From: Herbidospora cretacea
GTDB lineage: Bacteria; Actinomycetota; Actinomycetes; Streptosporangiales; Streptosporangiaceae
Direction: 5' to 3'
Assembly: GCF_001570605.1 (NCBI RefSeq)
Contig: NZ_BBXG01000001.1
Location: 310,001-374,000, forward strand
DNA: 64,000 nucleotides
A model generated the notes under the pieces. The model made no database searches. It was not told the origin of the DNA and was given only the letters and a program-made list of their open reading frames with translations. This document shows positions 1 through 27,123 of the stretch, in pieces. A program made the translations under genes and the position numbers. Positions within the stretch are counted from its first letter, which is position 1. Each line of letters begins with the position of its first letter.

Positions 1-3000
1 CCCTCGACCCGGCCAAGGCGCTGCGCCTGCTCGACCAGGCGCTCGCCCTCGACGAGACCTTCGTCGCGGTCGCCGACATCGACTGGAGCGGCGCGCCGCC
101 GCGACCCCTCCTCTCCGACCTCCCCGAACTCAAGGACCGGCAGCGGCCCGAGACCGTGACCCTCGCCGACCGGCTCGCCGGGATGTCCGGGGCCGACCGC
201 GACAGGGCGCTGCTCGACGTCGTGCGCGGCCAGGTCGCCGAGGTCCTCGGGCACGCCTCCGCCGACGCGATCGACGCGGGCCGGGCCTTCAAGGAGCTCG
301 GCTTCGAGTCGCTCACGGCCGTCGAACTGCGCAACCGGCTGGCCCTGGTCACCGGGCTCCGGCTGCCCGCCACGCTGGTGTTCGACCACCCGACGCCGAA
401 GGCGCTGGCCGCGTACGTCAGGGACGAACTGCTCGGCACCGAGGCCGAGACGAAGACGGTCGCCGTCGCGGCCTCCGACGAGCCGATCGCGATCATCGGG
501 ATGGGCTGCCGCTTCCCCGGCGGCGTGACCTCCCCCGACGACCTCTGGCGGCTGCTCGCCGACGGACGCGACGGCATCGCCCCCTTCCCGGACGACCGGG
601 GCTGGGAGCTGGAGAGCATCGCCAGCGAGTCGCTCGAAGGCGGCTTCCTCGACGACGCCTCCGGGTTCGACCCGGCGTTCTTCGGCATCTCCCCGCGCGA
701 GGCCCTGGCGATGGACCCGCAGCAGCGGGTCCTGCTGGAGGTCGCCTGGGAGGCGGTCGAACGGGCGGGCATCGACCCGGCCTCGCTCAAGGGCGCGCCG
801 GTCGGCGTCTTCGCGGGCACCAACGGGCAGGACTACCTGCCGCTGCTGCTGAACGCCACCGAGGACCTCGGCGGCTACCTCGGCACCGGCACCACCGCGA
901 GCGTCCTGTCCGGGCGCATCGCCTACACGCTGGGGCTGGAGGGCCCGGCGGTGACGATCGACACGGCCTGCTCGTCGTCGCTGGTGGCCCTGCACATGGC
1001 CGTCCAGGCGCTGCGGAGCGGCGAGTGCACGCTGGCGCTCGCGGGCGGCGCGACGATCATGTCGACGCCGAACCTGTTCGTCGAGTTCACCCGCCAGCGC
1101 GGGGTCGCCGCAGACGGGCGCTGCAAGGCGTTCGCCGCCGCCGCCGACGGCGCCGGGTTCGCCGAGGGCGCCGGGATGATCGTGGTCGAGCGCCTCTCCG
1201 ACGCGCTGGCCGCCGGGCACCCGGTCCTCGCGGTGGTCCGCGGCTCGGCCGTCAACCAGGACGGCGCGTCCAACGGCCTCACCGCGCCCAACGGCCCCGC
1301 CCAGCAGCGGGTCATCCGGCAGGCGCTCGCCAACGCCGGGCTGACCGTCCGCGACGTCGACGTCGTGGAGGCCCACGGCACCGGCACCTCGCTGGGCGAC
1401 CCGATCGAGGCCCAGGCGCTCATCGCCACCTACGGCCAGGACCGGGAGGAGCCCGTCCGGCTCGGCTCGGTGAAGTCGAACATCGGCCACACCCAGGCCG
1501 CCGCCGGCGTCGCCGGACTCATCAAGATGGTGCTCGCCCTGCGGAACGGCGAGATGCCCAAGACCCTGCACGTCGACGAGCCCTCACCTCACGTCGACTG
1601 GACGGCCGGGGCCGTCGAACTCCTCACCGAGCCCCGCGCGTGGCCGTCGACGGGCCGCCCGCGCCGGGCCGCCGTGTCGTCGTTCGGCCTCAGCGGCACC
1701 AACGCCCACACCATCCTGGAGCAGGCCCCGCCCGTCACCACCGAAACGCCCGGCGAGCCTCCCGCGACGGTCTGGCCGCTGTCCGCCCGCACCCCCGAAG
1801 CCCTGAAGGCGCTGGCCGCCGGGCTGCGCGGGCGCGCCGACCGGGCGGAGGTGGCATCCGCGCTCACCGCCCGCACCGTGTTCGAGCACCGCGCCGTCGT
1901 GCTCGCCGACGAGCACGTGGACGCCCGCCTGTCCCTCGGCGACCAGGCCGGGGTCGTCACCGGCGAGGCCGCCCCCACCGGCCCGCTGGTGTTCCTCTTC
2001 ACCGGCCAGGGCTCGCAGCGTCCCGGCATGGGCGACGAGCTGCGCGCGGCCTATCCCGTCTTCGCCGCCGCGTACGACGAGATCTGGTCGCGCTTCGACC
2101 TCACCACGGACGACCCCGACGACACCGGCTGGGCCCAGCCCGCCATCTTCGCCTTCGAGGTGGCCCTCCACCGGCTCGTGGAGTCGTGGGGCCTCACCCC
2201 GGACGCGGTCGCCGGCCACTCGATCGGCGAGATCGCCGCCGCCCACGTCGCCGGGGTCCTCTCCCTCGACGACGCCTGCACGCTGGTCGCCGCCCGCGCG
2301 TCCCTGATGTCGGCCCTGCCGAGGGGCGGCGCGATGGTCGCCGTCCAGGCGACGCCCGGCGAGATCTCGGGGAACGTCGACATCGCCGCGATCAACGGCC
2401 CCGCCTCGGTCGTCATCTCCGGGGAGGAGGAGGCCGTCCTGGCCGAGGCCGCCCGGTTCGGGAAGACCAGGCGCCTGGCCGTCTCCCACGCCTTCCACTC
2501 CCGCCTGATGGACCCGATGCTCGACGACTTCCGCCAGGCGATCGAGGGCCTCACCTTCCACGAACCCGCGATCCCCTTCGAGGGAGGCCGGGACTGGGTC
2601 GCCCACGTGCGCGACACGGTCCGCTTCCACGACACCGTCCAGCGGTTCCCGGGGGCGACCTTCGTCGAGATCGGCCCGGACGCCGTGCTGGCCGCCATGG
2701 CCGAAGGGACGGTCGCCACCCAGCGGCGGAACCGCCCCGAGGCCGCGACCCTGCTGATGGCCCTCGGGCAGCTGTTCGCCCGGGGCGTCGAGGTCGACTG
2801 GTCCCGCGTGTTCACCGGCCCCAAGGCGGTCCTGCCGACCTACCCGTTCCAGCGGCAGCCCTACTGGCCGGTCCCGCTGCGCGCCGCCGAGTCGCCCCTG
2901 CACTACGACGTCACCTGGCAGGACCTCGCCCCGGCCCGCCCCGGCCCGGCGACCTGGCTGCTCATCACCCCCGGCACGGCCGACGCCGGCCTCGCCGAGG

Positions 3001-4679
3001 CGCTGCGCGACCAGGGCGACGAGGTCATCCCGTTCGCGGTCGACGCCCTGGACCCCGACTGGACCGGGCTGCCCGACCACGCCCACGCCACCGGCGTGCT
3101 CTCGCTGCTGGCCCTGGACACCCGGCCGGTCGCGCCGGGCGTCCCGGCCGGTCTGACCGCCACCGCGACCCTGGCGACGGCCGGGCTGGCCGCGCCGCTC
3201 TGGTCGCTCACCCGCCAGGGCGACCCCGACCAGGCGATGGTGCGCGGGCTCGGCCGGGTCGCCGCGCTGGAGCAGCCCCACCGCTGGGGCGGCCTGGTCG
3301 AGATCCCGGACACGCCCGACGCGGCGCTGCTGCGCGCCGCGCTGGCCTCCGGCGAGGACGACCTCGCGATCGACGGAGGCGTGCGGGCCCGCCGCCTAAC
3401 CCGGAGCGGAGCGCTGCCCGCCGCCGAGTGGACCACCTCGGGCACCGCCCTGGTCACGGGCGGCACCGGCTCGGTCGGCGCCCACGTCGCCCGCTGGCTC
3501 GTCGGGCGGGGCGCCGATCACCTCCTCCTGACCAGCCGCCGAGGCCCGGACGCCCCCGGCGCCGCCGACCTGAAGGCCGAACTGGAGGCGGCCGGGGTCA
3601 CCGTCACGATCGCCGCCTGCGACGCGGCCGACCGCGCCCAGCTGGCCGCACTGCTCGACGCGCACGAGATCAGGTCGGTCTTCCACGCCGCCGGGACCCT
3701 CGACGACGGGGTGATCGAGTCGCTCACCCCCGAGCGGTTCGCCCGGGTCGCCAGCGCCAAGGCCGTCGCCGCCTGGAACCTGCACGAGCTCACCTCCGGC
3801 CTGGACGCGTTCGTGCTGTTCTCCAGCGTCGCCGGAGTGCTGGGCGCGGCGGGCCAGGGCAACTACGCCGCCGCCAACGCCTACCTCGACGCCCTGGCCG
3901 AGCTCCGCCACGCGCGGGGCCTCCCGGCGACCTCGGTCGCCTGGGGCGCCTGGGCCGAGGGCGGCATGGCCGGGGCGGAGATCGCCGACCGGCTCAAGGC
4001 CCGCGGCCTGCCCGCCATGCGGCCCGACCGGGCCGTCGCCGCGCTCGGCCGCCTGCTGGCGTCCGGCAAGGCCACCGGCGTGGTGGCCGACGTCGACTGG
4101 CCGCGCTTCGCCCCCGCGTACGCCGCCGCGCGGCCCCGGCCGATGATCGCCGCGTTCGCCGGGCCGGTCGCCGCCGGACCGGGCGCGGAACCGCCGCTGG
4201 CCGATCGGCTCGCGGCCCTGCCGGAGGCCGACCGCCCGGCGCTGGTGCTGTCCCTGGTCCGCTCGCGCGCCGCCGCCGTGCTGGGCATGGAGTCGGGCGA
4301 CCAGGTCAGGCCCGGCCAGGCGTTCAAGGAACTCGGCTTTGACTCGCTGACGGCCGTCGAGCTGCGCAACCTGCTCGGCACCGCCACCGGACTGACCCTC
4401 CCGGCGACGCTGGTCTTCGACTACCCGACCAGCGCCGACCTGGCCGCCCACCTGCTGGCCGAGGTGCTGCCGAGCGCCGAGGAGAGCAGGCGGGCGGAAC
4501 TCGACGGCATGGAGCACCGGCTGGCCGCCCTCGCCGAGGACGACCGCGCCGGGATCACCGCCCGCCTGGAGGCGCTGCTGGCCAGGCTGCGCGACCCCGG
4601 CCCGGCCGACCTGTCGGAGCGCCTCGACACCGCCACCGACGACGAGCTCTTCGAGCTGTTCGACAAGGAGCTCCGATGA
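1..4679 (+). CDS. Type I modular polyketide synthase (5' end outside window)
   Basis: The reading frame is open from base 3, so the gene starts upstream of the window; the internal GTG at 156 is not the true start. Visible domains in order: the tail of a ketoreductase (to about base 130); ACP (about 200-420, pantetheine Ser at 309-311 in the variant motif GFES); KS (477 to about 1740, Cys at 969-971 in DTACSSS, His in EAHGTGTS and KSNIGHTQ); AT (about 1980-2720, Ser at 2220-2222 in GHSIGE); KR (about 2895-4130, TGGTGSVG at 3456, Tyr at 3864-3866 in QGNYAAANA); ACP (about 4200-4440, Ser at 4344-4346); and a C-terminal docking tail. The AT carries HAFH at 2487-2498, which in this family predicts malonyl-CoA. 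The KR has LDD at 3699-3707 and no Trp before the Tyr, predicting a B1-type (D-hydroxy) reduction. There is no DH or ER, so the module leaves a hydroxyl. The AT is short between its HAFH and EIGPD motifs. The stop overlaps the next start (ATGA). Confidence 0.96.
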
Positions 4680-7600
4680 CGAACGAAGAGAAACTCCGCG
4701 ACTACCTGAAGCGGGCCATGAGCGACCTGCACGCCGCCAAGCGGCGCATCACCGACCTGGAGGCCGCCGACCGGGAGCCCGTCGCGATCGTCGGCATGGC
4801 CTGCCGCTTCCCCGGCGGCGTCACGACGCCGGAGGAGTTCTGGCGGCTGCTGGCCAACGGCGGCGACGCCCTCACCCCGCTCCCGGACGACCGGGGCTGG
4901 GACCTGGAGTCCCTCTACGACCCCGACCCGGACAACCCCGGCACCTCCTACGTCCGCGACGGCGGCTTCCTGGACGGCGTGGCCGACTTCGACGCCGCGT
5001 TCTTCGGCGTCTCCCCGCGCGAGGCCCTCGCGATGGACCCCCAGCAGCGGCTCCTCCTGGAGACGTCGTGGGAGGCCGTCGAACGCGCCGGCATCGACCC
5101 CCGGTCGCTCAAGGGCTCGGCCACCGGGGTCTTCGCCGGCACCAACGGCCAGGATTACACTGGGCTGGTGCTCAGCGCCCCGCCCGAGGGCGTGGAGGGC
5201 TACCTCGGCACCGGCAACGCGGCGAGCGTGCTGTCGGGACGGGTGTCGTACACGCTCGGACTGGAAGGGCCCGCAGTCACGATCGACACGGCCTGCTCCT
5301 CGTCGCTGGTGGCGCTCCACCTGGCCGCCCAGTCGCTGCGGCGCGGCGACTGCACCCTCGCCCTGGCGGGCGGGGTGACCGTGATGGGCACCCCGTCGGC
5401 GTTCGTCGAGTTCAGCCGCCAGCGCGGGCTCGCCTCCGACGGCCGGTGCAAGGCCTTCGCGGCCGGGGCCGACGGCACCGGCTGGTCCGAGGGCGCCGGC
5501 GTGCTGCTCCTCGAACGCCTCTCCGACGCCGTGGCGAACGGCCACCGCGTGCTGGCGGTGGTGAAGGGCTCGGCCATCAACCAGGACGGCGCCTCCAACG
5601 GCATCACCGCGCCCAACGGCCCCTCGCAGCGCCGGGTGATCCGCCGGGCCCTCGCCGACGCCGGGCTCGGCCCCGCCGACGTGTCGGCCGTCGAGGCCCA
5701 CGGCACCGGGACCTCCCTCGGCGACCCCATCGAGGCCCACGCGCTGGTCGCCGCCTACGGCCGCGACCGCGACGAGCCGCTCCTGCTCGGCTCGGTGAAG
5801 TCGAACATCGGCCACACCCAGGCCGCCGCCGGCGTCGCCGGGGTGATCAAGATGGTGCTGGCCCTGGCCCACGAGGAACTGCCCCGCACCCTGCACGTCG
5901 ACGAGCCCTCCCCGCACGTCGACTGGTCGGGCGTCGAGCTGCTGACCCGTCCCGCCGCCTGGCCGCGCGGCGACCGGCCGCGCCGCGCCGGGGTGTCGTC
6001 GTTCGGCTTCAGCGGCACCAACGCCCACGTCATCCTGGAGGAGCCGCCGCCGGTCGAGGCGGTCGCCCACGAGGACGTCCCGTGGGTGATCTCCGGCCGG
6101 ACCCATCAGGCGCTGCGCGCCCAGGCCCTCCGGCTCAAGCCCCACGTCGGCCGTCCCGGCGTCGGGCACGCCCTCGCCACCGCCAGGACCGCGTTCGAGC
6201 ACCGCGCCGTGCTGCTCGGCGACGACCGCGCGGCCCTGCTCGACGCGCTCGCCCGGGGCGACAGCCCGAGCGGCGCCGTCCAGGGCGTCGCGGCCGAGGA
6301 GCCGAAGGTCGCGTTCCTGTTCACCGGCCAGGGGTCGCAGCGGCCCGGGATGGGCCGGGAGCTCTACGACGCCTACCCCGTCTACCGGGAGGCGTTCGAC
6401 GAGGTCTGCGCCCGCTTCCCCGGCCTCGCCGACGCCGTCTGGTCGGGCGGCGGGCTCGACGAGACCGCCTTCACCCAGGCCGCGATCTTCGCCGTCGAGG
6501 TCGCCCTGTTCCGGCTGGCCGCCTCGTTCGGCGTCACCCCCGACGTGGTCGCCGGCCACTCGATCGGCGAGTTCGCCGCCGCCCACGCGGCGGGCGTGCT
6601 CACCCTCGACGACGCCTGCACGCTCGTCGGCGCGCGGGGCGCGCTCATGCAGGCGCTCCCGAAGGCCGGCGCGATGGCCGCCGTCGAGGCCTCGGAGGAG
6701 GAGGCGCGCGGCACCCTCACCGGCCGCACCGCCATCGCCGCCGTCAACGGCCCGACCTCCGTGGTCGTGTCGGGGGAGGAGACCTCGGTCCTGTCGATCG
6801 CCGGGTTCTGGGCGGAGGCGGGCCGCAAGACCAAGATCCTCAAGGTCTCGCACGCCTTCCACTCGCCCCTGATGGAGCCGATGCTGGCCGACTTCGGGCG
6901 GGTCGCCCGGAGCGTGACCTTCCACCCGCCGCGCATCCCGTTCGTCGCCCACGGCGACGTGACCTCGCCCGGCTTCTGGACCGCGCACATCGTCGAACCG
7001 GTGCGTTTCCTGGCCACCCTGCGGGAGCTGGCCGCCCGGGAGGTGACGGCGTACCTGGAGATCGGCCCCGACGCGGTGCTGACCGCGATGGCCGCCGACG
7101 CGGGCGCGACCACCCACGTCCCCGCCATCCGCCGGGGACGGCCCGAACGGCGCACCTTCCTGACCGCGCTGGCCGAACTCCACGTCCACGGCGTGCCCGT
7201 GCGCTGGGCCGACCCGGGCCACCCCGTCGACCTGCCCACCTACGCCTTCCAGCGCCGCCGCTTCTGGCCCGGCGTGCGGCTCCCGGCCGCGCCGCCCGTG
7301 CCGGCGGCGGAGCGGACCCCGATCCTCGCCGACCGGCCGGAGGGCGACATCCTCCAAGCGGTGGTGACGCTGTCGGCGGCGGTGCTCGGCCACGACGACC
7401 CGGCCGAGATCGAGCCCGGCCGCCGGTTCCTGGAGCTCGGCTTCGACTCGCTGGCCTCCCTCGAACTGCGCCGGCGTCTCGCCGTCGCCACCGGCCTGGA
7501 CCTGCCGGCCAGCCTCACGTTCGACCACCCGACGCCCGCGCTGCTGGCCAGGCACCTCGGCGCGCAGCTCACCGCGCCCGCGCCGCGGAGCGACGGCGGC

Positions 7601-8419
7601 ATCCTCGGCCAGCTCTACCGGCGCGCCGCCGAGACCGACCGCCTCGACGACTTCATGACGCTGGTCTCCGACGCCGCGGAGTTCCGTCCCGTCTTCACCG
7701 ACCCGGCGGAGGTCAGCCCCGATCTCGTACGGCTCTCCTCCGGCCCGGACACCCCGGTGATCATCGGCTGCAGCGGCATGACCGCCGCGGGCGGCCCCCA
7801 CGAGTTCGCCCGCTTCGCGGCGGGCCTGCGGGGGATCCGGCAGGTCGACGCCGTCGCCCTGCCCGGCTTCGCGGCCGGGGAGGACCTCCCGGCCACCGGC
7901 GAGGTCGCGCTGCGCGCCCAGGCCAGAACCATCCTGGACGCGGTCGGCGCGACCCCCTTCGTGCTCGTCGGCCACTCGGCCGGCGCGATCATGGCGCACG
8001 CGCTGGCCCGGCACATGGAGGAGGCGGGGGTCGGCCCGGCCGGGCTCGTCCTGGTCGACGTCTACCCGCCGTTCAGCGAGGTGCTGACCGGCTGGCAGGC
8101 CGAACTCGCCGGGGGAGTGCTGGCCGAGACGACCGTCCCCCTCGACGACCACCGGCTGACCGCCAGCACCGCCTACGCCCGCCTGTTCATGGAGTGGCGG
8201 CCCGAACCGCTCGCCGCCCCGGTGCTGCTGGTCCGCGCGTCGGAACCGCTCGGCACCCCCGTGGACGGCTGGCAGGCGACCTGGCCCCACGACCACACGG
8301 CCGTCGACGCCCCCGGCGACCACTTCACCATGATGGGCGCCCACGCGGGCGCCGTCGCCGCGGCCGTGCAGAACTGGCTGGCCGCTGCCATCCCTACCGC
8401 GAAGGAGCAGTCCCGATGA
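4676..8419 (+). CDS. Type I polyketide synthase, terminal module KS-AT-ACP-TE
   Basis: This 1247-residue protein starts with a short charged N-terminal docking helix ([15 protein letters not shown]) that would pair with the tail of the preceding PKS. It then has KS (from about 4775; Cys at 5294-5296 in [15 protein letters not shown] and KSNIGHTQ present), AT (about 6308-7110; Ser at 6560-6562 in GHSIGE; HAFH at 6851-6862, malonyl-type), ACP (Ser at 7448-7450 in LGFDSL) and a C-terminal thioesterase (Ser at 7976-7978 in GHSAG; His at 8321-8323 in GDHF). No KR lies between AT and ACP, so the last extension keeps its beta-keto group. Together with the hydroxyl made by the preceding module, release would give a 3-keto-5-hydroxy acyl end, cyclised or hydrolysed by the TE. 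That chemistry is inferred from domain content. The protein is the last of the assembly line. Confidence 0.96.
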
Positions 8420-10448: not shown

Positions 10449-10466
10449 GCATGCGGAGAACACGTA

Positions 10467-10501
10467 CAAAAAAGAGAGGGCGGCCCTTTCGGGTCGCCCT
10501 C
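10467..10501 (-). terminator. Rho-independent terminator of the ABC exporter operon
   Basis: Read on the minus strand it is an 11-bp stem with one mismatch (gagggcgaccc / gggccgccctc), loop gaaa, followed by tctttttt (A-run at 10467-10473 on the plus strand). It lies just behind the permease stop at 10509. Confidence 0.85.
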
Positions 10502-10508
10502 ACCAGGA

Positions 10509-13228: not shown

Positions 13229-13537
13229 GATAGCTCCCTCGTGTCGAGACTTCTCGTGCACACGCTATCGAAACAATGGCGTGTCCAATTACTCCAGACC
13301 GTCTGTCAAGACGCCCGCAATGCCGACCCTGTCAGGGGAAACGCCCGCGACCAGCGATAACGGACGGCCTCCCCGATCACCCCTGAACGACCCCAGAGGA
13401 GTTTCCGCACTTAGCCCGTCTCGCGACGATAGGGGTGGCTCGGCCGCTCCGGATAGCCGAATGATAATCCCAGAAAACCGGCGGCCCATAGCCTCCATAT
13501 CGCCAGAGTAATGGGAATCCCTGACAGAGGGGGGGCC
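13229..13537. promoter_or_regulatory. Divergent promoter region between exporter and LAL regulator
   Basis: About 310 bases with no convincing gene. It must hold the promoters for the leftward ABC operon and the rightward LuxR gene. An inverted repeat ACACGC-N13-GCGTGT lies at 13260-13284, just upstream of the ATPase start, and could be an operator. A TTGACA hexamer lies on the minus strand near 13309-13314. I could not pair it with a convincing -10 box. Confidence 0.45.
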
Positions 13538-16381
13538 ATGGGCCTTGTGGAGAGAGCGGAGGCGTTCGCCGCCCTCGAAGGACTGATAGCGGACGCGCGG
13601 TCGGGCAAGGGGCGGGTAGCGCTCCTGACCGGCACCGTCGCGACCGGCAAGAGCGAACTCCTGTACGCCTTCGCCGAGAAGGCGACCGAACTCGGCGCCT
13701 TGGCGGTGATGGCCTCGGCGTCCCGGGCGGAGCAGAACCTGCCCCTAGGGGTGCTGGGCCAGCTGATCCAGGACGCCCCGCTGATGGCCGAGGACCGTGA
13801 GCGCGCGATGGGCCTGATGGCCGAGAGCGCGGCCCTCGCGGCCGGCCAGGACGAGCACGACGACCCGGCCGGCGCCCTCATGGAGCCGGTCGACGTCCAG
13901 GTCGTGCACGCGCTGTGCACGATCCTCCTGGAACTGTCCGAACGCCATCCGCTGCTGATCGTGGTCGACGACGTCCACCACGCCGACCGGATGTCGCTGC
14001 TCTGCCTGGCCTACCTGGCCCGGCGGGTGCGCTTCGCCCGGATCGCCGCCGTGTTCGGGCACCCCGACCACGGCCGCTACACCGAGACCTTCTTCCAGAC
14101 CGAGCTGATGCGCCAGCCGCACGCCCGGCGCGTCCACTTGGCGCCGCTGTCGGCCCGGGGCGTCACGGCGCTGGTCGCCGACCGGCTCGGCCGCACAGTG
14201 GCCGAGCGCTTCGCGGCCGACTGGTTCGCGATGTCCGGCGGCAACCCGCTGCTGGCCGCCGCGCTGATGGACGACTACGAGACCGGCGCCCGGACCGCGC
14301 CGGACCAGACCCCGTCGGAGCTGGTGGTGGGCGACCGCTACGGGCAGGCCGTGCTGTCGTGCCTGCACCGGGGCGAGCCGATGACCCTCCAGGTCGCGCG
14401 CGGCCTGGCGGTGCTCGGCGGGTCCGACTCGCTGGCCCCGCTGCTCGGGCTGACCCAGACCGGCGTCACCCAGTCGTTGCAGGCCCTGACCGCCTGCGGC
14501 GTCGTGGCCGGGGGCGCGTTCCGCCACGAGGTGGGACGGGCCGCCGTGCTGGCCGACATCGAGACCCCCGAGCGGGCCGACCTGCACCGTGCCGCCGCGC
14601 GCCTCGCGCACGAGGGCGGCGCGGCGGCGGCGACCGTCGCCGACCACCTGCTGCAGGCCGGTCGCGTCGGCGCCGTGTGGGTGGCGCCGGTGCTGGAGGA
14701 CGCCGCCAGGGCCGCCCTGCGCGAAGGGCGCGTCAAGACCGGCGTCGCCTATCTCCAGCTCGCCGCCCGCGAGTGCACCGACGAGCAGCACCGGATGCGC
14801 ATCCTGACGATGCTGGTCCGGGCCGAGTGGCGGATCAACCCGGGAGCCCCGGCCGCCCACCTGGCCGAGCTGGCCGGCGCCCTCCAGCGCGGGCAGCTGC
14901 GGGGCGGCGACGCGGCCGTCCTGGCCCGCGCGCTGCTGTGGCACGGCCGCACCGCCGACGCCCGGGAGGTCCTGGAGCACCTCGCCCTGGACGCCGACCC
15001 GGCCGACGCGGAGGCGGCGGGCGAGCTCGCCGTGGCCCATCCGTGGCTGCGGGTCACCCATCCGGCGTTCCTGGCGGAGCTGCGGGCCGGCCGCGCCGGG
15101 ACGTCCAGGGAGACCGAGGAGGGAGAGCGCAGGCACGGCCTGTTCGGCGAGCCGGTCCGGCGCGCCGCGATGTCGGTGGCCGCCAGCCGCCGGCTGGAGG
15201 CGACCTCGGCCCTGGCCGAGGTGCTGACCCGGGGCCCGCGCGAGGGCCTCGCCGACGGCATCGAACGCCTCCTGCGCGGCTCGCGCCTGGAGGAGATGTC
15301 CCTCGACACCGTCGAGAGCGCCCTGCTCGCGCTGACCTACGCGGGCGCCCACGACCGGGCCGCGCCCTGGTGCGACCTGTTCAGCGTCGAGGCCGCCTCC
15401 CGGCACGCGCCGAGCCGGCAGGCCCGGCTCGACGCCATCAAGGCCGAGATCGCGGTACGCCAGGGCGACCTGCCCGCGGCCGAGCAGAGCGCCCGCCAGG
15501 CGCTGGCCACCATCCCCCCGACCAGCTGGGGCGTCGCCGTCGGCGGCCCGATCGCCGGACTCGTCCTGGCGGCCACCGCCATGGGCCGCTACGACACCGT
15601 CGGCGAGTTCCTCGACCGGCCCGTCCCCGACGCCATGTTCGAGACCCGTTACGGCCTGCTCTACCTGTACGCCCGGGGCCGCTACAGCCTGGCCACCGGT
15701 CACCCGGCCGCCGCGCTGCGCGACTTCCAGGCGTGCGGCGAGCTGGTCCGCAAGTGGGAGCTCGACGTGCCCGGCTTCATCCCGTGGCGGATCGACGCCG
15801 CGGAGGCGTGCCTGCGCGTCGGGCGGCAGGACCAGGCCCGTCAGCTCGTCGAGTCGCAGCTGCGCCGCTGCGGCCCGGCCGCCAAGCGGGTGCAGGGCAT
15901 GGCCATGCGCGTCCTCGCCGCCACCGGCGAGGTCCGCCACCGGCCGATGCTGCTGCGCCAGTCGGCGGAGCTGCTCCAGGTGGGCGGCGACCGCTACGAA
16001 CTCGCCCGGGCCCTGCTGGACCTGGTCGAGGCCTACCAGTCGCTCGGGGAGTACCGCCGCGCCGGGATGATCACCGGCCGGGCCCTGAGCGTCGCCAGGG
16101 AATGTCAGGCCGAACCGCTCAGCCGCACGCTCTTCCGTGACGGCGACGACAAGAAGACCGCCGAGGCGGCCCCGGCCCCGGCCACGGGCCTGTCCGACGC
16201 CGAGCGCCGGGTGGCCGTGCTGGCTGCGGCCGGATACACCAACCGTGAGATCGCCGGGAAGCTCTACATCACGGTGAGCACGGTCGAACAGCACCTGACC
16301 CAGACCTACAAGAAGCTGAACATCACCCGCCGTGCGGATCTCCCGCCCAGCTTGGAGTTCGGCAGCCCCTTAACCACCTGA
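13538..16381 (+). CDS. LuxR-family transcriptional regulator, large ATP-binding (LAL/MalT) type
   Basis: 947 residues. The N-terminal AAA/STAND ATPase has Walker A (GTVATGKS) and Walker B (LLIVVDDVHH). A long helical/TPR-like middle follows, then a C-terminal LuxR helix-turn-helix (LSDAERRVAVLAAAGYTNRE, then IAGKLYITVSTVEQHL). The ATG at 13538 is preferred over one at 13511 because agaggggggg lies at the right distance ahead of it. LAL regulators are usual pathway-specific activators of modular PKS clusters. The gene carries a single TTA leucine codon at 16370-16372, three codons before the stop. In streptomycetes such codons make translation depend on the bldA tRNA. It reads toward the carboxylase genes, with a 14-base gap to the next GTG. 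Confidence 0.92.
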   Translation: MGLVERAEAFAALEGLIADARSGKGRVALLTGTVATGKSELLYAFAEKATELGALAVMASASRAEQNLPLGVLGQLIQDAPLMAEDRERAMGLMAESAALAAGQDEHDDPAGALMEPVDVQVVHALCTILLELSERHPLLIVVDDVHHADRMSLLCLAYLARRVRFARIAAVFGHPDHGRYTETFFQTELMRQPHARRVHLAPLSARGVTALVADRLGRTVAERFAADWFAMSGGNPLLAAALMDDYETGARTAPDQTPSELVVGDRYGQAVLSCLHRGEPMTLQVARGLAVLGGSDSLAPLLGLTQTGVTQSLQALTACGVVAGGAFRHEVGRAAVLADIETPERADLHRAAARLAHEGGAAAATVADHLLQAGRVGAVWVAPVLEDAARAALREGRVKTGVAYLQLAARECTDEQHRMRILTMLVRAEWRINPGAPAAHLAELAGALQRGQLRGGDAAVLARALLWHGRTADAREVLEHLALDADPADAEAAGELAVAHPWLRVTHPAFLAELRAGRAGTSRETEEGERRHGLFGEPVRRAAMSVAASRRLEATSALAEVLTRGPREGLADGIERLLRGSRLEEMSLDTVESALLALTYAGAHDRAAPWCDLFSVEAASRHAPSRQARLDAIKAEIAVRQGDLPAAEQSARQALATIPPTSWGVAVGGPIAGLVLAATAMGRYDTVGEFLDRPVPDAMFETRYGLLYLYARGRYSLATGHPAAALRDFQACGELVRKWELDVPGFIPWRIDAAEACLRVGRQDQARQLVESQLRRCGPAAKRVQGMAMRVLAATGEVRHRPMLLRQSAELLQVGGDRYELARALLDLVEAYQSLGEYRRAGMITGRALSVARECQAEPLSRTLFRDGDDKKTAEAAPAPATGLSDAERRVAVLAAAGYTNREIAGKLYITVSTVEQHLTQTYKKLNITRRADLPPSLEFGSPLTT

Positions 16382-18000: not shown

Positions 18001-18006
18001 GGCCTG

Positions 18007-18216
18007 ATGTCACCCGAAACGATGTCACCCGAGATCGAAGTCGTGCGCGGCGAACCCACGGAAGAGGAACTGGCCGCCCTGGTCTGCGCCCTCCTCCTGG
18101 TCGCCGAGCCTGCCCCGACCGCCACCGGAGGACGCCCGGAGCCGCGATGGTTGCCGCAGGGCCACCGTTCCGCGCGCTCCTGGGCCACCCCGGCCGTCCC
18201 GCGAAGGCCGCGATGA
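18007..18216 (+). CDS. Acyl-CoA carboxylase epsilon subunit
   Basis: 69 residues. The N-terminal part reads [20 protein letters not shown], the hallmark of the small epsilon subunit that stimulates actinobacterial acyl-CoA carboxylases. The C-terminal half is a Pro/Arg-rich stretch. It sits six bases after the beta subunit and overlaps the alpha subunit start by ATGA. Two starts are possible (18007, and ATG at 18022). Confidence 0.85.
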
Positions 18217-21065: not shown

Positions 21066-24000
21066 TTACGTGTGCCGGGCCGACTTGAGCCGCTCGGTGA
21101 TCCTCTCGCACAGTTGGCGGCCCGCCGGGGAGTCCATCCGGTCGCAGAGCGCCAGCGCCTCGGTGAGCGCCTCGCGCGCGGCCTCCGGATCGCCGGACGC
21201 CTGGTAGGCGTCGGCCACCAGCGACAGCGCCTCGGCCTCCAGCATCGAGGCGTTCATCCGGTTGAACAGCATCAGCGCCTCCCGCAGGTGGGGCAGCCCC
21301 TCCTCGGGGTGGCGGCGGGCCAGCGCGAGCTCGCCGAGGCCGACCTTGATGCGGGCCTCGGCCAGGCGGTGGTTGGTGGTGGCGGCCAGCACGAGGGCCT
21401 GCCGCAGCGCCGCGTCGGCGGCCTCGTGCGCGCCGGTCCGCAGCCGGGCCAGGCCGAGCCCCTGGAGGGCGTACGCCTCGCCGGTCCGGTCGCCCATCTC
21501 GCGGACGACCGTGAGCGCCTGCTCGAAGATCTCCTGCGCCTGCCCGGCGTCGCCGGCCCGCAGGAGGGTGCTGCCCGTGCGGTGCAGCACCTGGGCTTCC
21601 ACCCGGCGGCTGCCGCCCTCCCTGGCCAGCCGCAGGGCGTCGGCGAGCAGGGCGCGCGCGCCTTCCAGGTCGTCGTGCTCCAGCCGGAGCTGCGCCAGGC
21701 TGTTCATCACGTACGCCGCCGCGATGCGGTCGCCGGTGCGCTGGAAGATCTCCAGGGCGCGCTCGTAGTAGTCGCGGGCCTCGTCGAACCGGCCGACCAT
21801 GCGGTCGAGCAGGGCGAGGTTCCTGATCACCAGGGCGACGCCCAGGTCGTCCGGGAGGTCCTCGAACAGCGTCAGCGCCGCGTCGAGGTTGGCCCGCGCC
21901 TCGGAGTAGCGCTGCTCGGTGATGTGCAGCGAGCTCAGCGAGTAGAGCATCGCGGCCTGCCCGCGCACGTCGTCGGCGGTCCGGGAGGCCGCGAGGGCGA
22001 TCTCGTGGGTGTCGCGCCAGTCGTCGAAGTAGGCGCGCGACTCGAACAGGGTGACCGCGCTGATGGCCAGGTCCCACGACAGCTCGGCGAACCCGGCCTG
22101 GGCGGCCTGGCGGATGCCCGCGACCAGGGTGAGGCGTTCGCGTTCGTACCAGTTCAGGGGGGCGCTGACGAGCTGGGAGACGAGCTTGTCCGGCAGCGGC
22201 CAGCGGGTCGCGCCGCTGTGGATCTGGGAGTGGTCGTCGCCGTACTCGTTGCGGTGGGCGGCCTCGGCGAGGAACAGCAAACCGCCCAGGACCCGGCCGA
22301 GCGCGGCCCGCCGCTCGGCCGCCGTCTCCTCCGCGGCCAGCCGCTCCCGGGCGAACACCCTTATGAGGTCGTGGAAGCGGTACTGGCTGTGCACGCCGTG
22401 GCCGATGCCGGTCGTCTCGATGAGCTGCGCGTCGGCGAGGTCGTCGAGCAGGTCCTGCGTCTCGTAGAGGGGGCGGTCGAGCAACGCGGCGCTGACCCAG
22501 GCGGAGAACACCGAGAAGTCCAGGATGGCCAGGCGGCGGAACAGTCTCCTGGCGTCGTCGGGGGTGCTCTCGTAGGTCAGCGAGATGCTGGCCCGGATGC
22601 CCATCTCGCCGTGCTTGAGCTCGTCGAGGCGGCGGGTCTCGTCCTCCAGCCGCCCGGCCAGCTGCTCGATGCTCCAGTGGGGCCGGGCCGACAGCCGCGC
22701 GCCAGCGATGCGCAGCGCCAGCGGGAGCTTGCCGCACAGCTCGGCGAGCTGGGCGGCCGACTCCATCTCGGCCTGCACCCGGTCGGCGCCGGCGATCCGC
22801 GACAGCAGCTCGATCGACTGCTGGAGGTCGAACACGTCGACCTCGACGTGGACGGTGCCGGGCAGGCCCGCGAGCCGCCCGCGGCTGGTGACGACGACCG
22901 CGCAGCGGGACTCGCCGGGCAGCAGCGGCGTCACCTGTCCCTCGCTGTAGGCGTCGTCGAGCACGACCAGCATGCGGCGGTCGGCCAGCAGGCCGCGGTA
23001 CATCTCGGCGCGTTCGTCGAGGCTCTCGGGGATCGCGTTGCCGGCCACGCCGAGGGCGCGCAGGAAGCGTTCGAGGACGTGCATGGGGCTGATCGGCCGG
23101 GACGCGCCGCCGTGCAGGTCGGCGTAGAGCTGGCCGTCGGCGTAGAGGTCGGCGATGCCGTGGGCGGAGTGCACCGCGATGGTCGACTTGCCGGTCCCGG
23201 CCTTGCCGATGATGCCGATGATGGGGACCGCGTACCGGGTCCGGTCCTCGGCGGCGAGCAGGAGGTGCTGGCGGATCTCCTCGACCTGTTTGGAGCGGCC
23301 GGTGAAGTCGGCGATGTCGGTCGGCAGCAGCCGGGGCACGCTGACCGCGGGGGCCTGCGGGGGAGCGGGCGGCGGGTTCGGCTGCGGGACGGCGGCCGGC
23401 GGCGGGTCCACGACCAGCGCGGGGCGCGTCGCGGCCGGCGGGGCGGCGAGGCGGTCGTCGGAGGTGAGGATGGCGTACTCGAGCTGCTGCAACTGCTCGT
23501 TCGGCTCGATCCCGAGCTCTTCGATCATCGTGCGGCGGGCCGTGCGGTAGACCTGGAGGGCCTCGACCTGCCGGCCGGAGCGGTAGAGGGCGACCATGAG
23601 CTGGCCGCGTAACCGCTCGCGCAGCGGATATTCGTCGACGAGCGTGGTCAGTTCGCTGACCAGTTCATGGTGGTTGCCCAGGTCGAGTTCGAGCTGGAGG
23701 CAGTCCTCGTTGGCGGTGATGCGGTTCTCCGCCAGGCGTCCGGCCGACGACTGCACGAACCGGCTCTCGATGCCCTCCAGCGCGGGCCCGCGCCACAGCG
23801 CCAGGGCCTCGCGGTAGACGCGGACGGCGTCCTCGAACTCGCCGCTCTCCCGGGCCCGGCGGGCCTCGGCGGTCAGCCGTTGGAAACGGTGCGAGTCGAT
23901 GGACTCCAGGTCGGCCTTGAGCGCGTAGGCGGTCGACTGGGTGGTGATGATGCCCGGCTCGCCGTGCTTGGCGAACAGGCGGCGCATCGCCGAGATGCAG

Positions 24001-24191
24001 ATCTGCACCTGTGACCTGCTGGTGTTCGGCGGGTTGTCGCCGTAGACCGCCTCGACCAGCCGGCCGATGGTCACTCCTCGGTTGGGTTCGAGCAGCAATA
24101 CGGCAAGGACGGTCTGCTGCCGGTTGCTTCCCAGGTCCAAGCGGTCGTCTCCGTCGACCACCTCGAGCGGTCCGAGAACGCGGAACTCCAC
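21066..24191 (-). CDS. SARP/AfsR-family transcriptional regulator
   Basis: 1041 residues. The N-terminal OmpR-type winged helix (starting MEFRVLGPLEVVDGDDRLDL) and BTAD (about residues 95-245, ending MIEELGIEPNEQLQQLE) define a SARP. A Pro-rich linker follows, then an NB-ARC ATPase (Walker A GKAGTGKST; Walker B MLVVLDD; VVTSRGRL sensor) and C-terminal TPR repeats (about 740-1030). AfsR-like SARPs activate secondary-metabolite clusters by binding direct repeats near -35 boxes. A single TTA codon lies at 23612-23610 (codon 194), suggesting bldA-type dependence. The start is followed upstream by a long low-GC region containing a 9-bp direct repeat. Confidence 0.94.
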   Translation of the reverse strand: MEFRVLGPLEVVDGDDRLDLGSNRQQTVLAVLLLEPNRGVTIGRLVEAVYGDNPPNTSRSQVQICISAMRRLFAKHGEPGIITTQSTAYALKADLESIDSHRFQRLTAEARRARESGEFEDAVRVYREALALWRGPALEGIESRFVQSSAGRLAENRITANEDCLQLELDLGNHHELVSELTTLVDEYPLRERLRGQLMVALYRSGRQVEALQVYRTARRTMIEELGIEPNEQLQQLEYAILTSDDRLAAPPAATRPALVVDPPPAAVPQPNPPPAPPQAPAVSVPRLLPTDIADFTGRSKQVEEIRQHLLLAAEDRTRYAVPIIGIIGKAGTGKSTIAVHSAHGIADLYADGQLYADLHGGASRPISPMHVLERFLRALGVAGNAIPESLDERAEMYRGLLADRRMLVVLDDAYSEGQVTPLLPGESRCAVVVTSRGRLAGLPGTVHVEVDVFDLQQSIELLSRIAGADRVQAEMESAAQLAELCGKLPLALRIAGARLSARPHWSIEQLAGRLEDETRRLDELKHGEMGIRASISLTYESTPDDARRLFRRLAILDFSVFSAWVSAALLDRPLYETQDLLDDLADAQLIETTGIGHGVHSQYRFHDLIRVFARERLAAEETAAERRAALGRVLGGLLFLAEAAHRNEYGDDHSQIHSGATRWPLPDKLVSQLVSAPLNWYERERLTLVAGIRQAAQAGFAELSWDLAISAVTLFESRAYFDDWRDTHEIALAASRTADDVRGQAAMLYSLSSLHITEQRYSEARANLDAALTLFEDLPDDLGVALVIRNLALLDRMVGRFDEARDYYERALEIFQRTGDRIAAAYVMNSLAQLRLEHDDLEGARALLADALRLAREGGSRRVEAQVLHRTGSTLLRAGDAGQAQEIFEQALTVVREMGDRTGEAYALQGLGLARLRTGAHEAADAALRQALVLAATTNHRLAEARIKVGLGELALARRHPEEGLPHLREALMLFNRMNASMLEAEALSLVADAYQASGDPEAAREALTEALALCDRMDSPAGRQLCERITERLKSARHT

Positions 24192-24557
24192 CTCGCAGCC
24201 CCCTGCAGAGATCCAGCAGTCTCTCGCCCGCGGGCGCGGCGTCCCGCATGACGGAGTTACCCGTCAGTTGAAAATTGAATGGGAGTGAGCTGCTGTGACG
24301 CTTTGTGTCATTCTGGACCCAGATCATACATCTTGTGCAGATTGTGATCCAGCGCAACTTGGCCTATTTAGGCCGGTTTTGTCGAGTTATTGTAACGGTA
24401 ACATAGTTGTCATGCGACATTGGTCGCGTATATGCAGACATTGGTTACCGCCCGGTATCTCGCAATGCGGAACGGCCGGAGACCCCCGTCTCCGGCCGCT
24501 CGTTTCCGGTGGCCTCGGCGGCCACCCGGGCCGCGCAGCAGGAAGTACGTGCCGAGA
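24192..24557. promoter_or_regulatory. Low-GC regulatory region upstream of the SARP gene
   Basis: About 365 bases with no gene. Roughly 24280-24460 is markedly richer in A/T than its surroundings and must hold the SARP promoter. Visible structure: the direct repeat GACATTGGT at 24416-24424 and 24437-24445 (21 bases start to start), the inverted repeat GGCCTA-tt-TAGGCC at 24361-24374, and paired gtaac elements near 24391-24402. Spaced direct repeats are the usual kind of SARP binding site, so autoregulation is possible. Confidence 0.5.
24473..24498 (-). terminator. Hairpin downstream of the small secreted-peptide gene
   Basis: A perfect 11-bp stem (cggccggagac / gtctccggccg) with a four-C loop, located 60 bases beyond the stop of the minus-strand peptide gene. 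No marked U-run. Confidence 0.6.
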
Positions 24558-24767
24558 TTAGTCCCAGGGGGTGTCCTCCGTCGCGCCGCCCGTGGGCTTG
24601 GGCGCCGGCGGGGTGAGTGTGGGCAGCGGGCTCGGCGAGGCGGCTGGGACGTCGTCGGCGAAGACCGGCTGCGCGGAGAGCACGGCGGTCCCGGCGGTCA
24701 GCCCGCCGAGGGCGATGAGCGTGGAGGCGATGAGGCGGACGGTGGCTCCGGGGCGGAGGATCTGCAT
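24558..24767 (-). CDS. Small secreted Pro-rich peptide
   Basis: 69 residues with gaagga seven bases before the ATG. Residues 1-37 form a clear Sec signal peptide: basic start (MQILRPGATVRL), hydrophobic core (IASTLIALGGLTAGTAVL) and AQPVFA cleavage region. The mature part is only about 32 residues, rich in Pro, Ser and Thr, ending TEDTPWD. No cysteine is present, so it is not an obvious lanthipeptide or thiopeptide precursor. I do not recognise the family. It stands alone between the SARP gene and the transthyretin-like gene. Confidence 0.65.
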   Translation of the reverse strand: MQILRPGATVRLIASTLIALGGLTAGTAVLSAQPVFADDVPAASPSPLPTLTPPAPKPTGGATEDTPWD

Positions 24768-25059
24768 GGGATTTTCCTTCGGGGTCGTATTCCTGGGGCG
24801 CTTTCCCTCACCCGAGAATTGCTGACCGGTTTTGTTTTCCCGTCGCTCTCTCGGTGTGTCCTCAACCTAGGAAAGGCCGCCATCCGCTCGTTATCGGTTC
24901 GCTCTCGGGCCTCCATCCACCACCTTTATCGGTGGCCGGCGCCGTCGAATAGCGGATGGAAAGGGGATCGATAGCGGCCGTTGTCACCCTCGGTCTGCAA
25001 CCGAAATCAGCACAGCGGCCCGCGCGGGCTCGCGGGCCTGGAGAGTGGGCGTTCCGGAC
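24768..25059. promoter_or_regulatory. Divergent intergenic region, peptide gene / transthyretin-like gene
   Basis: About 290 bases with no convincing gene. It holds TTATCGG twice (24891-24897 and 24926-24932) and a 9-bp inverted repeat (ccatccgct at 24880-24888, agcggatgg at 24951-24959). These could serve the promoter of the rightward transthyretin-like/LeuA operon. No clear -35/-10 pair was found. Confidence 0.4.
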
Positions 25060-25398
25060 ATGAGCATCACGTCGCAAGCGCTGGACAGCGTTTACGGCCG
25101 GTCGGCCGCCGGCGTGCGCGCCCGGCTGGAGCAGGCCGTCGACCTCGGCTGGCGCCGTCTGGGGACGGCGGAGACCGACGCGGACGGCTGCATCGCCGAA
25201 TGGGCGGCCGATCATTTCGAACGCGGGCTCTACCGAATCGTGTTCGACAGTGACCACTATTTCGTCGGCCTCGGGCTGAGCGCGGCCTATCCGGAGATCA
25301 CCGTGATGTTCCGGATTGCCGACGAGTCCGACTCCTATCGGATCCAGGTCACCCTTTCGCCCCACTCGTATTCCATCTACTTCGGGACCGACAACTAG
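25060..25398 (+). CDS. Transthyretin-fold protein, degenerate 5-hydroxyisourate hydrolase homologue
   Basis: 112 residues, the usual HIUase length. Fold signatures are present: SQALDSVYGRSAAGVRARLE at the start, TDADG in the middle, YPEITVMF before the last strands, and LSPHSYSIYFGTDN at the end. The catalytic residues conserved in HIUases are all changed: the N-terminal His (before VLD) is Gln6, the Arg of ADGR is Cys44, the His of YHVPLLLSP is Arg94, and the terminal YRGS is YFGT followed by two extra residues. It should therefore not hydrolyse hydroxyisourate. No other purine-catabolism gene is nearby. It is nine bases upstream of the LeuA homologue, so the two are probably co-transcribed. 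Its activity is unknown; a recruited biosynthetic or binding role is inference. Confidence 0.85.
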   Translation: MSITSQALDSVYGRSAAGVRARLEQAVDLGWRRLGTAETDADGCIAEWAADHFERGLYRIVFDSDHYFVGLGLSAAYPEITVMFRIADESDSYRIQVTLSPHSYSIYFGTDN

Positions 25399-25407
25399 GG
25401 ATCCGCC

Positions 25408-27123
25408 GTGAGCCACAACAGCAGAGGGGTGCGGCGCTACGAACCACCCGCATCCGTTTCACTCCCGGGCCGCACCTGGCCCGACAACCGCATCACCCAC
25501 GCGCCGCGCTGGTTGTCGACCGACCTCCGCGACGGCAACCAGTCCCTGGCGACGCCGATGGACCCGGTCCGCAAACGGGCCATGTTCGACCTCCTCGTCG
25601 GCATGGGCTACAAGGAGATCGAGGTCGGCTTCCCGGTCGCCTCGCAGGACGACCACGACTTCCTGCGCCATCTCATCGAGCACGAGCGGATCCCCGGCGA
25701 CGTCCGGATCTCGGTGCTCACCCAGGCCCGCGACGAGCTGATCCGGCGGACCGTCGAGGCGCTCCAGGGCGCGCCGCGCGCCACCGTGCACATCTACAAC
25801 GCGACCTCCCCGCAGTTCCGCGACCTGGTGTTCGGGCTGACGCGCGACGAGTGCAAGGAGATGGCGGTCCGGGCCGCCCGCCTGATGATGAAGTACGCCG
25901 ACGAGATGCTGACCGGCACCGACCTCGGCTTCCAGTACTCCCCGGAGCTGTTCAACGACACCGAGCTCGACTTCTCCCTGGAGGTCTGCGAGGCCGTCAT
26001 GGACGTCTGGGAGCCCGGCCCCGGCCGGGAGATCATCCTCAACTTCCCGACCACGGTTGAGCGCGACACCCCCAACGCGTTCGCCGACCAGATCGAGTAC
26101 CTGCACCGCAACCTGTCGCGCCGCGAGCACGTCTGCCTGTCCGTCCACCCCCACAACGACCGGGGGACGGGGGTCGCCTCGGCCGAGCTGGCGCTGATGG
26201 CGGGCGCGCAGCGGGTGGAGGGCTGCCTGTTCGGCAACGGCGAGCGGGCCGGCAACGTCGACCTGGTCACCCTCGGCATGAACATGTACAGCCACGGCGT
26301 CGACCCCGGCGTCGACTTCTCCGACCTGGGCCGGGTCCGGCGCACGGTCGAGCAGTGCAACGGCATCCCCGTGCACCCGCGCCACCCCTACGGCGGGGAC
26401 CTCGTCTTCACCGCCTTCTCCGGGTCCCACCAGGACGCCATCAAGAAAGGCTTCGACGCCCTCGCCCGGCAGGCCCACGAGGCCGGCGCCGACCCCGAGG
26501 AGCTGCCCTGGCGGGTGCCCTACCTGCCGGTCGACCCGGCCGACGTGGGCCGCACCTACGAGGCGGTGGTGCGCATCAACAGCCAGTCGGGCAAGAACGG
26601 GGTCGCCTACGTCCTGGGCGCGTGGCACCACCTGAACATCCCGCGCGGCCTGCGGATCGACTTCGCCCGCGCGGTGCAGCGCTACACCGACGCCGAGGGC
26701 GGCGAGATCTCCCCGCAGCGGGTCGGCGACCTGTTCTACCGCATCTACACCTCCTCGCTGCCCGTCCCGCTGGCGTTCGCGCCGGGCCTGGTCTCGGCGG
26801 AGCTGCACCTGGACGCGGGCGAGTTCGACATGAGCGGCGGCCGGTCCGACCAGGTCGCGGCGCTGCGCGCGGAGCTGTCCGCACGGGGCGTGGAGGTGCG
26901 GGCGGTCGAGTGGACCGCCGCCGAGGCCGCCGCCACGGGCCGGGTCGCCGTCTACGCGCACTGCCAGGTGGGCGAGCACGAGGTCTGGGGCGCCGGGGTG
27001 GAGCTCGACGCGACCACGGCCGCGCTCCGCGCGGTCAGCGCGGCGGTGGGCCGGTCGGCGTGGAGCGTGCTCAGTAGCGCCACTCCGCGTCCACGCCAGG
27101 CCAATCTGGTCGAACACCGGTAA
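25408..27123 (+). CDS. leuA: 2-Isopropylmalate synthase homologue (LeuA, type 2)
   Basis: 571 residues, normal for actinobacterial LeuA. The TIM-barrel catalytic domain carries TDLRDGNQSLATPM, the metal/acid motif HPHNDRGTG and NGERAGNVDLVTLGMN, so condensation of acetyl-CoA with a 2-ketoacid is likely. The C-terminal regulatory domain is recognisable (VWGAGVELDATTAALRAVSAAVGR), but the GNGP-type loop that lines the leucine site is replaced by SGGRSDQ and the following segment is altered. The start is GTG, nine bases after the transthyretin-like gene. It may be the housekeeping enzyme or a paralogue that makes an extended 2-ketoacid for the neighbouring cluster; the altered regulatory domain favours a specialised copy but does not prove it. 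Confidence 0.9.
   Translation: MSHNSRGVRRYEPPASVSLPGRTWPDNRITHAPRWLSTDLRDGNQSLATPMDPVRKRAMFDLLVGMGYKEIEVGFPVASQDDHDFLRHLIEHERIPGDVRISVLTQARDELIRRTVEALQGAPRATVHIYNATSPQFRDLVFGLTRDECKEMAVRAARLMMKYADEMLTGTDLGFQYSPELFNDTELDFSLEVCEAVMDVWEPGPGREIILNFPTTVERDTPNAFADQIEYLHRNLSRREHVCLSVHPHNDRGTGVASAELALMAGAQRVEGCLFGNGERAGNVDLVTLGMNMYSHGVDPGVDFSDLGRVRRTVEQCNGIPVHPRHPYGGDLVFTAFSGSHQDAIKKGFDALARQAHEAGADPEELPWRVPYLPVDPADVGRTYEAVVRINSQSGKNGVAYVLGAWHHLNIPRGLRIDFARAVQRYTDAEGGEISPQRVGDLFYRIYTSSLPVPLAFAPGLVSAELHLDAGEFDMSGGRSDQVAALRAELSARGVEVRAVEWTAAEAAATGRVAVYAHCQVGEHEVWGAGVELDATTAALRAVSAAVGRSAWSVLSSATPRPRQANLVEHR

Follow-up and report, generated by a model that had tools for sequence, protein, structure and literature searches.

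What does a protein with the fold of 5-hydroxyisourate (HIU) hydrolase do once both catalytic histidines are gone and no purine gene lies beside it? The question is raised by a 112-residue transthyretin/HIU-hydrolase-fold protein encoded in a stretch of 64,000 nucleotides of Herbidospora cretacea (contig NZ_BBXG01000001.1, positions 310,001 to 374,000; hereafter the window), which an earlier note, made from the sequence alone, placed beside a LeuA (2-isopropylmalate synthase) homologue at the edge of a polyketide cluster. Comparison with related loci adds three steady partners that are missing from that note, namely a large AfsR-type SARP regulator, a small exported-type peptide and a SARP-type operator, and this gene set suggests an undescribed peptide-signalling circuit. 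We give an even chance to the proposal that the protein is a non-catalytic HIU-hydrolase paralogue recruited as the ligand-binding part of a peptide–SARP regulatory cassette, which would also drive LeuA. Coordinates are collected in table 1; L, C and G numbers are our handles for loci, contigs and genomes.

A transthyretin fold without the catalytic histidines

Both the profile and the fold place the window protein in the transthyretin superfamily. It scores 76.7 bits against PF00576 (gathering score 25.3; Pfam profile search), and its AlphaFold2 model (33 sequences in the alignment, mean pLDDT 91.5) is a transthyretin fold whose top Foldseek match in the PDB is 2g2n, the E. coli transthyretin-related protein (TM 0.93). 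The same 76.7 bits miss the cut-off of the HIU-hydrolase equivalog TIGR02962 (87.45; NCBIfam), and the protein lacks both catalytic histidines and the terminal YRGS, which we take to be the C-terminal motif of HIU hydrolases. It carries Q6, C44, R94 and H102 and ends in Y107-F108-G109-T110-D-N. The earlier note had thus read the fold, the replaced triad (Gln6-Cys44-Arg94) and the YFGT end plus two residues correctly, and it was equally right about the nine bases between the stop codon and the LeuA start (checked at 25408), about the polyketide setting (type I polyketide synthase [PKS] genes, table 1) and about the missing uricase, as no uricase or OHCU decarboxylase match lies within 5 kb of the gene. 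The Herbidospora genome holds two PF00576 genes; the other copy, on contig C17, ends in YRGS and is flanked by the genes for OHCU decarboxylase and uricase.

The substitutions are not peculiar to Herbidospora. Of 57 clade sequences, 48 have Gln at position 6, four Glu, two His, two Arg and one Leu; at position 94, 39 have Gln, six Lys and three His, and none keeps both histidines. At position 108, 54 have Phe and three Leu in place of the Arg of the five canonical copies compared, which all end in YRGS. Judged from this alignment, the catalytic set is broken throughout the clade, the loss of H6, H94 and the YRGS arginine being nearly general. Rapid hydrolysis is lost in the H6A, H95A and Y108F mutants of the S. 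dublin transthyretin-like protein (TLP), according to the accessible part of a review (PMC4324301); these residues align with window Gln6, Arg94 and Tyr107, the tyrosine being retained. Tyr107 is retained in 42 of the 57 sequences and Y12 in 52, while W31, R59, Y67, G72, Y77 and R85 are invariant, R85 being missing from the five canonical copies. At position 44, Arg (29 sequences) outnumbers Cys (11), and at position 102 Tyr (35) outnumbers His (15); the idea that Cys44 and His102 make up a new active site was rejected on these counts. At eleven loci of a Sphaerisporangium type (L041–L047, L049–L051 and L060), the transthyretin C-terminus is altered to HFR-x, and this end, the operator (3–4 mismatches) and the peptide leader change in concert.

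The neighbourhoods differ as sharply as the residues. Within 5 kb of 62 clade genes, we found a SARP gene in 59 cases, LeuA in 45, a large ATP-binding LuxR (LAL) regulator in 45, and neither OHCU decarboxylase nor uricase in any; within 5 kb of 23 canonical genes, there were 23 OHCU decarboxylase genes, 22 uricase genes, a single SARP (34% identity, 4.5 kb away) and no LeuA or LAL, bearing in mind that the canonical controls were hand-picked from the listed family matches rather than drawn at random. Together with the residue losses and the canonical copy elsewhere in the genome, these counts uphold the earlier proposal of a scaffold recruited away from HIU hydrolysis.

At least 57 matches with 50% or more identity to the window protein occur in 297 genomes of the family, the rest reaching at most 46% among the matches listed. 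In a class-wide search (394 genomes, alignment A1), all nine matches at 154 bits or more came from the window's own family, and the nearest outsider, from another family (G562), scored 105 bits. When GTDB species genomes were scanned with a pattern, 32 named loci emerged, two of them in Winogradskya and one in Actinoplanes; the remaining 29 belong to genera that we take to be Streptosporangiaceae in the GTDB sense. In the tree, a branch with support 99/96 splits 60 clade rows and L134 (the outsider from G562, on a long branch) from 23 canonical rows, L135 and the SARP-linked L205, L206 and L208 (long branches), the tree being built from 112 columns, with many inner forks unresolved and a root that is a drawing aid only. 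By these data, the window protein belongs to a separate clade of Streptosporangiaceae and a few Micromonosporaceae, all soil actinomycetes. In G562, locus L235 (1266–4701) carries a transthyretin-like gene (45%, PF00576 46.8 bits) tail to tail with a 54% SARP.

The protein thus shares fold and length, and probably ancestry, with the HIU-hydrolase family (PF00576, TIGR02962); unlike its members, it has no catalytic histidines, YRGS end or purine neighbours, and a SARP-type operator stands in front of its gene. Vertebrate transthyretin took the same route, as a duplicated HIU hydrolase that lost catalysis (PMC4324301, accessible part), whereas the window protein represents a separate bacterial lineage in the context of a gene-cluster regulator.

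The regulator, the peptide and the operator

Large AfsR-type SARPs are STAND proteins, presumed to await an inducer. The window SARP scores 154.4 bits for BTAD (PF03704) and 26.0 bits for Trans_reg_C (PF00486), just below the cut-off of 26.2; its top NCBIfam match is AfsR, at 643 bits and below the cut-off of 1430. The model of its C-terminal TPRs (pLDDT 92.9) resembles peptide-binding TPR superhelices, Rap-Phr included: among the 50 matches listed, LGN complexes lead by E-value, the top query TM (0.69) goes to APPBP2 with a C-terminal degron, and Rap with Phr-type peptides reaches 0.54–0.58. In AfsR, the NOD-TPR part inhibits the SARP domain until ATP binds, and the accessible part of that paper names no inducer (PMC10936776). 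The window SARP has the SARP domain, NB-ARC and TPR in common with AfsR, and its putative operator has heptamer repeats and 4-nt spacers in common with that of PimR (PMC5930380, accessible part); unlike both, it is accompanied by a linked exported-type peptide, a putative transthyretin-fold target gene and an operator of the sequence GATAGCG/GAAGGCG.

The peptide gene sits between the SARP and transthyretin genes. Its product opens with basic and hydrophobic residues, continues through a linker rich in Pro and Thr and closes with EDTPWD; in relatives, the tails read NTPWG, NPWD, GDPWG or CC..WP, some of them in tandem. Repeated tails occur in seven clade loci (L079, L080, L081, L083, L085, L086 and L088) and in L205 and L206. 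Under a strict rule (30–120 aa, a hydrophobic stretch after a basic residue, and a PW- or CC..W-type end), such a peptide was found within the cassette at 50 of 66 loci, with 50 in 405 kb of cassette versus 11 in the 842 kb that flank it at these loci, which are related to each other and do not count as independent events. One of the 50, at L125, looks spurious (other strand, different tail). Tail-bearing open reading frames (ORFs) that miss the strict rule occur at eight loci (L041, L044, L045, L060, L052, L053, L057 and L206) and bring the relaxed total to about 57 of 66. By any reading, the peptide is absent from L040, L043, L046, L051, L087 and L125, and from the short contigs L037, L075 and L208; at L037, a peptide leader runs into the contig end. 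Sets of seven and of two peptides had no NCBIfam or Pfam match above cut-off, and the window peptide had no NCBIfam match even near it.

The peptide is not a companion of SARPs in general, a possibility that was rejected. None was found beside 16 sister SARPs that lack a transthyretin gene (49–65% identical over 982–1024 aa, each with at least 0.9 kb of upstream sequence); the lone strict match in these loci, at L197, is the same peptide as that of L048 and goes with a neighbouring transthyretin-linked SARP in the same genome stretch. This count leaves out four of 20 SARP loci: L202, where the SARP is cut at the contig-start side; L204, with only 459 bp upstream and the genome's transthyretin gene on another contig end; L203, where that gene lies at a contig end and a split cassette is possible; and L196, which keeps a transthyretin remnant and a peptide. 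L203 has 8.8 kb upstream without a transthyretin gene or PW tail, and including it would give 17. Neither was a PW-type tail found near 29 other BTAD loci fetched from the Herbidospora genome (about 1.2 kb upstream of each; 30 of 35 matches were fetched, two falling in one ORF). The sister SARPs of L185–L195 and L197 (57–65% identity) have a phosphopantetheinyl transferase (PPTase) gene close by and no transthyretin gene or peptide of their own.

The operator in front of the transthyretin gene lies 83 bp before its ATG. A scan of 63 upstream regions with the pattern GATAGCG-N4-GAAGGCG-N4-GATAGCG gave a site with at most 4/21 mismatches in 53, eight of them exact, versus 1/1260 first-order shuffles, a comparison that shows conservation rather than independent discovery because the pattern was derived from the same loci. 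L040 and L087 keep a site at four mismatches though no close SARP is adjacent. With a matrix built from 51 sites, the window site included, the best matches in the 64-kb window are 24948 (+, 36.7), 24889 (−, 23.5) and 24878 (−, 13.8), after which scores fall to 4.7; the second and third overlap before the peptide gene. Across the 8.28-Mb genome, a degenerate pattern, widened to fit the window site, gave one match without mismatch (that site) and two at three mismatches, and its reversed control none. An experimental precedent exists in the PimR operator, with three heptameric direct repeats and four-nucleotide spacers (PMC5930380, accessible part). Members of the SARP family bind heptamers repeated at an 11-bp pitch; the window operator was recognised by its sequence.

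Table 1. Features of the window, the cassette members first
Feature	Coordinates	Strand	Evidence
Transthyretin/HIU-hydrolase-fold protein, 112 aa, without catalytic histidines	25060..25398 including stop (ORF 25060-25395)	+	Pfam, AlphaFold2, Foldseek, residue table, tree
Large AfsR-type SARP, 1041 aa: OmpR-like N-terminus, BTAD, NB-ARC, C-terminal TPRs	21066..24191	-	Pfam, NCBIfam, TPR model
Small exported-type peptide, 69 aa, end ...GGATEDTPWD, candidate pheromone precursor	24558..24767	-	ORF comparison across loci
SARP-type operator of three heptamers spaced by 4 bp: AATAGCG gatg GAAAGGG gatc GATAGCG	24948..24976	+	Pattern and matrix scan
Divergent heptamer repeats before peptide gene, two overlapping weaker operator matches	24878..24917	-	Matrix scores 23.5, 13.8
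LeuA (2-isopropylmalate synthase) paralogue; intact catalytic domain, sub-threshold allosteric domain (Pfam)	25408..27123	+	Pfam, NCBIfam
LAL (large ATP-binding LuxR) regulator	13511..16381	+	PF13191, PF00196
Type I PKS (KS-AT-KR-ACP; KS-AT-ACP-TE), context only	156..8419	+	Domain search
Acyl-CoA carboxylase beta subunit	16396-18000	+	Domain search
Biotin carboxylase with biotin domain	ORF 17388-19958, overruns end of beta-subunit ORF	+	Domain search
PPTase	19959-20642	-	Domain search

The proposed circuit and its alternatives

A circuit can be proposed from these parts. A HIU-hydrolase paralogue that lost catalysis would have become a cytosolic, probably tetrameric, ligand-binding member of the cassette. 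The peptide would be made as a precursor, exported and processed, its short C-terminal tail (DTPWD in the window) acting as the signal and the TPR domain of the large SARP as the receptor. The SARP would bind the operator and activate a putative operon with the transthyretin gene as its first member, and the divergent repeats would put the peptide gene under the same SARP, closing a positive loop. Because the operon would extend to LeuA (and in most relatives to LAL), its activation would turn up a leucine-type ketoacid pathway free of feedback control, and the next regulator with it. The transthyretin-fold protein would most likely tune the SARP by binding a small ligand, be it the peptide tail or another.

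Our confidence differs from part to part. That the transthyretin-fold protein is, in general terms, a non-catalytic binder inside a regulatory loop we regard as about evenly balanced. It is a tentative proposal that the peptide is the ligand of this protein or of the SARP. Similarly speculative is the specific version, in which the tail (xxPW[G/D/E] or CC..WP) induces the AfsR-type SARP, with the dead HIU hydrolase as intracellular carrier, co-receptor or sink, in an undescribed actinobacterial pheromone circuit. Among the titles and abstract openings listed, we found no paper describing this cassette, a weak negative, as most subscription journals and preprints were outside the reach of the search. 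Should the exported-type peptide prove to be the inducer, silent Streptosporangiaceae clusters could be switched on by short synthetic peptides read from the genome; a large SARP would have a ligand class, and the transthyretin fold would have been recruited as a signal binder a second, independent time, the step from HIU-hydrolase paralogue to non-catalytic binder then being shown independently of vertebrates.

The closest likeness is to RRNPP systems (Rap, PlcR, NprR, Rgg), in which the gene of a small propeptide, whose C-terminal tail is conserved and at times duplicated, neighbours that of a TPR regulator. Set against the ranges in the accessible part of PMC10075063, the propeptide (69 aa, for 10–100), the C-terminal TPRs of the candidate receptor and the 366-bp gap (24191–24558, for −60 to 400) all agree; as for Sec secretion, the window peptide shows a basic start and hydrophobic stretch by our own rule. 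The candidate receptor has 1041 aa rather than 250–500, so the cassette is not an RRNPP member; it differs further in its SARP-NB-ARC-TPR architecture, its actinobacterial host and its transthyretin-fold partner.

Several observations weigh against the circuit. Export signals were called by that rule (basic start plus hydrophobic stretch) and not by SignalP. The peptide evolves fast, with a quickly changing linker and conservation confined to the tail; in 12 related pairs, 83 differing codons are synonymous versus 145 non-synonymous, with changes at the three codon positions of 101/77/111. At the Sphaerisporangium-type loci, the leader is degenerate, a tail such as GGNTPWG staying in several, and no such ORF was found at three of the eleven (L043, L046 and L051). 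There is no SARP within 5 kb at L087, L075 and L037, of which L037 and L075 are short contigs and L087 is not, and L040 has only a 36% identical SARP nearby. L235 carries a SARP and a transthyretin gene and no peptide by rule. The tree groups the more divergent L205, L206 and L208 with the canonical copies; it may be misplacing their long branches, or else the link to SARPs may have evolved on two occasions. The resemblance of the TPR model to peptide binders is generic and counts as weak support, because TPR folds are alike. The sequences point to no physical tie between the peptide and the transthyretin-fold protein.

Other explanations have to be set beside this one. The transthyretin-fold protein could be a new enzyme of small-molecule metabolism acting alongside LeuA, perhaps on a 2-oxoacid or an alkylmalate product; a new reaction had been one suggestion of the earlier note, and its other, a ketoacid or polyketide intermediate as ligand, found no support. 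LeuA is nearly always immediately downstream where it occurs (45/62 loci within 5 kb), its catalytic domains are intact and the allosteric domain of the window copy is degenerate, and R85 and Y12, the one invariant and absent from the five canonical copies, the other nearly constant, could form a new pocket; but no LeuA lies within 5 kb at 17 of the 62 loci, a LeuA–LAL pair exists without a transthyretin gene (L212, on contig C13), and the former active-site positions are variable, with no conserved nucleophile or acid-base pair at 44/102, which makes us consider such an enzyme unlikely. Another alternative would treat the peptide as a precursor of a ribosomally synthesized and post-translationally modified peptide (RiPP) with PW cores, tailored or bound by its neighbours (the transthyretin fold, LeuA) and yielding an antibiotic or a morphogen. 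A signal- or leader-like N-terminus, tandem C-terminal cores and the CC-containing tails of eight loci (L048, L052, L053, L057, L072, L074, L076 and L098) would fit. Against this, the cassette has no known modifying enzyme as a steady member, its constant partner being a TPR transcription activator, and the lantibiotic dehydratase of L196 is a single case with other short precursor-like ORFs beside it, so that we hold a RiPP to be quite unlikely.

The small ORF might instead be a regulatory leader or ribosome-arrest peptide governing translation of the downstream SARP, as it is mostly upstream of and co-directional with that gene (at 366 bp in the window and about 140 bp in L048) and its C-terminus is conserved right before the stop. 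Yet the tail is also kept at L196, L205 and L206, where the ORF lies elsewhere than upstream of the SARP; orientation and distance vary, and tandem tail copies would be hard to explain, which leaves this explanation improbable. By far the least probable is that the window protein is an ordinary HIU hydrolase that has simply diverged: the fold, the Pfam match and the retention of Tyr107 (Tyr108 of S. dublin TLP) agree with it, whereas both histidines needed in that protein are replaced (PMC4324301, accessible part), the same genome has a canonical copy next to OHCU decarboxylase and uricase, and purine neighbours are lacking within 5 kb at all 62 clade loci.

Downstream members and changing surroundings

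The earlier note had tied the gene to LeuA and to polyketide genes. The LeuA link proved real in the genome search, at 45 of 62 loci, and not obligatory. The window LeuA matches the catalytic HMGL-like domain (PF00682, 232 bits), the post-catalytic domain (PF22615, 113 bits) and NF002991/PRK03739 (741 bits, cut-off 455). Its allosteric domain (PF08502) reaches 12.8 bits for a cut-off of 24.9, versus 103.5 in the canonical LeuA of the genome (contig C6, 53% identical), and of five other cassette LeuAs only that of L038 reaches the cut-off (28.8 bits); leucine feedback has probably been lost in the window copy. In the window, the LAL gene, the cassette's usual downstream regulator, lies upstream of the SARP, on the far side and not behind LeuA; its product is 68% identical to the LAL of the L038 cassette over 951 columns. 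A weak operator-like doublet at 13452–13480 (+, GATAGCC gaat GATAATC), with its beginning 59 bp and its end 30 bp ahead of LAL, ranks fifth among the window's matrix matches (score 2.65) and may link LAL to the same SARP. At L212, contig C13 carries a second LeuA paralogue (8785–10458) with an adjacent LAL (6039–8699), a nearby SARP of only 39% and no transthyretin gene, so LeuA–LAL is a separable unit. A small SARP replaces LeuA/LAL behind, or overlapping, the end of the transthyretin gene at L055, L058, L059, L112, L113 and L126, which makes the downstream member interchangeable among regulators.

The polyketide link did not hold: a ketosynthase (KS) was found in the fetched flanks of only one of 62 other loci (L206), and linkage of the transthyretin gene to PKS was rejected. 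Around the cassette, these loci have acyl-CoA carboxylase beta in 10 cases, PPTase in six and DUF1702 in 21, with a terpene synthase (L071) and a lantibiotic dehydratase (L196) as single cases, and 28 have none of these genes nor a KS. As the surrounding gene cluster changes, the cassette is portable and not bound to polyketide. The DUF1702 loci (L061, L063, L064, L066–L070, L073, L074, L076–L085 and L088) have an UnbV/FG-GAP ORF too in 20 of 21, a set known from enediyne clusters; no KS was found in their fetched flanks. At L196, a cassette remnant (6882–14664) made of a SARP, a decayed transthyretin gene, a GNTPWD peptide and a small SARP adjoins the lantibiotic dehydratase, beside which short precursor-like ORFs were judged by eye.

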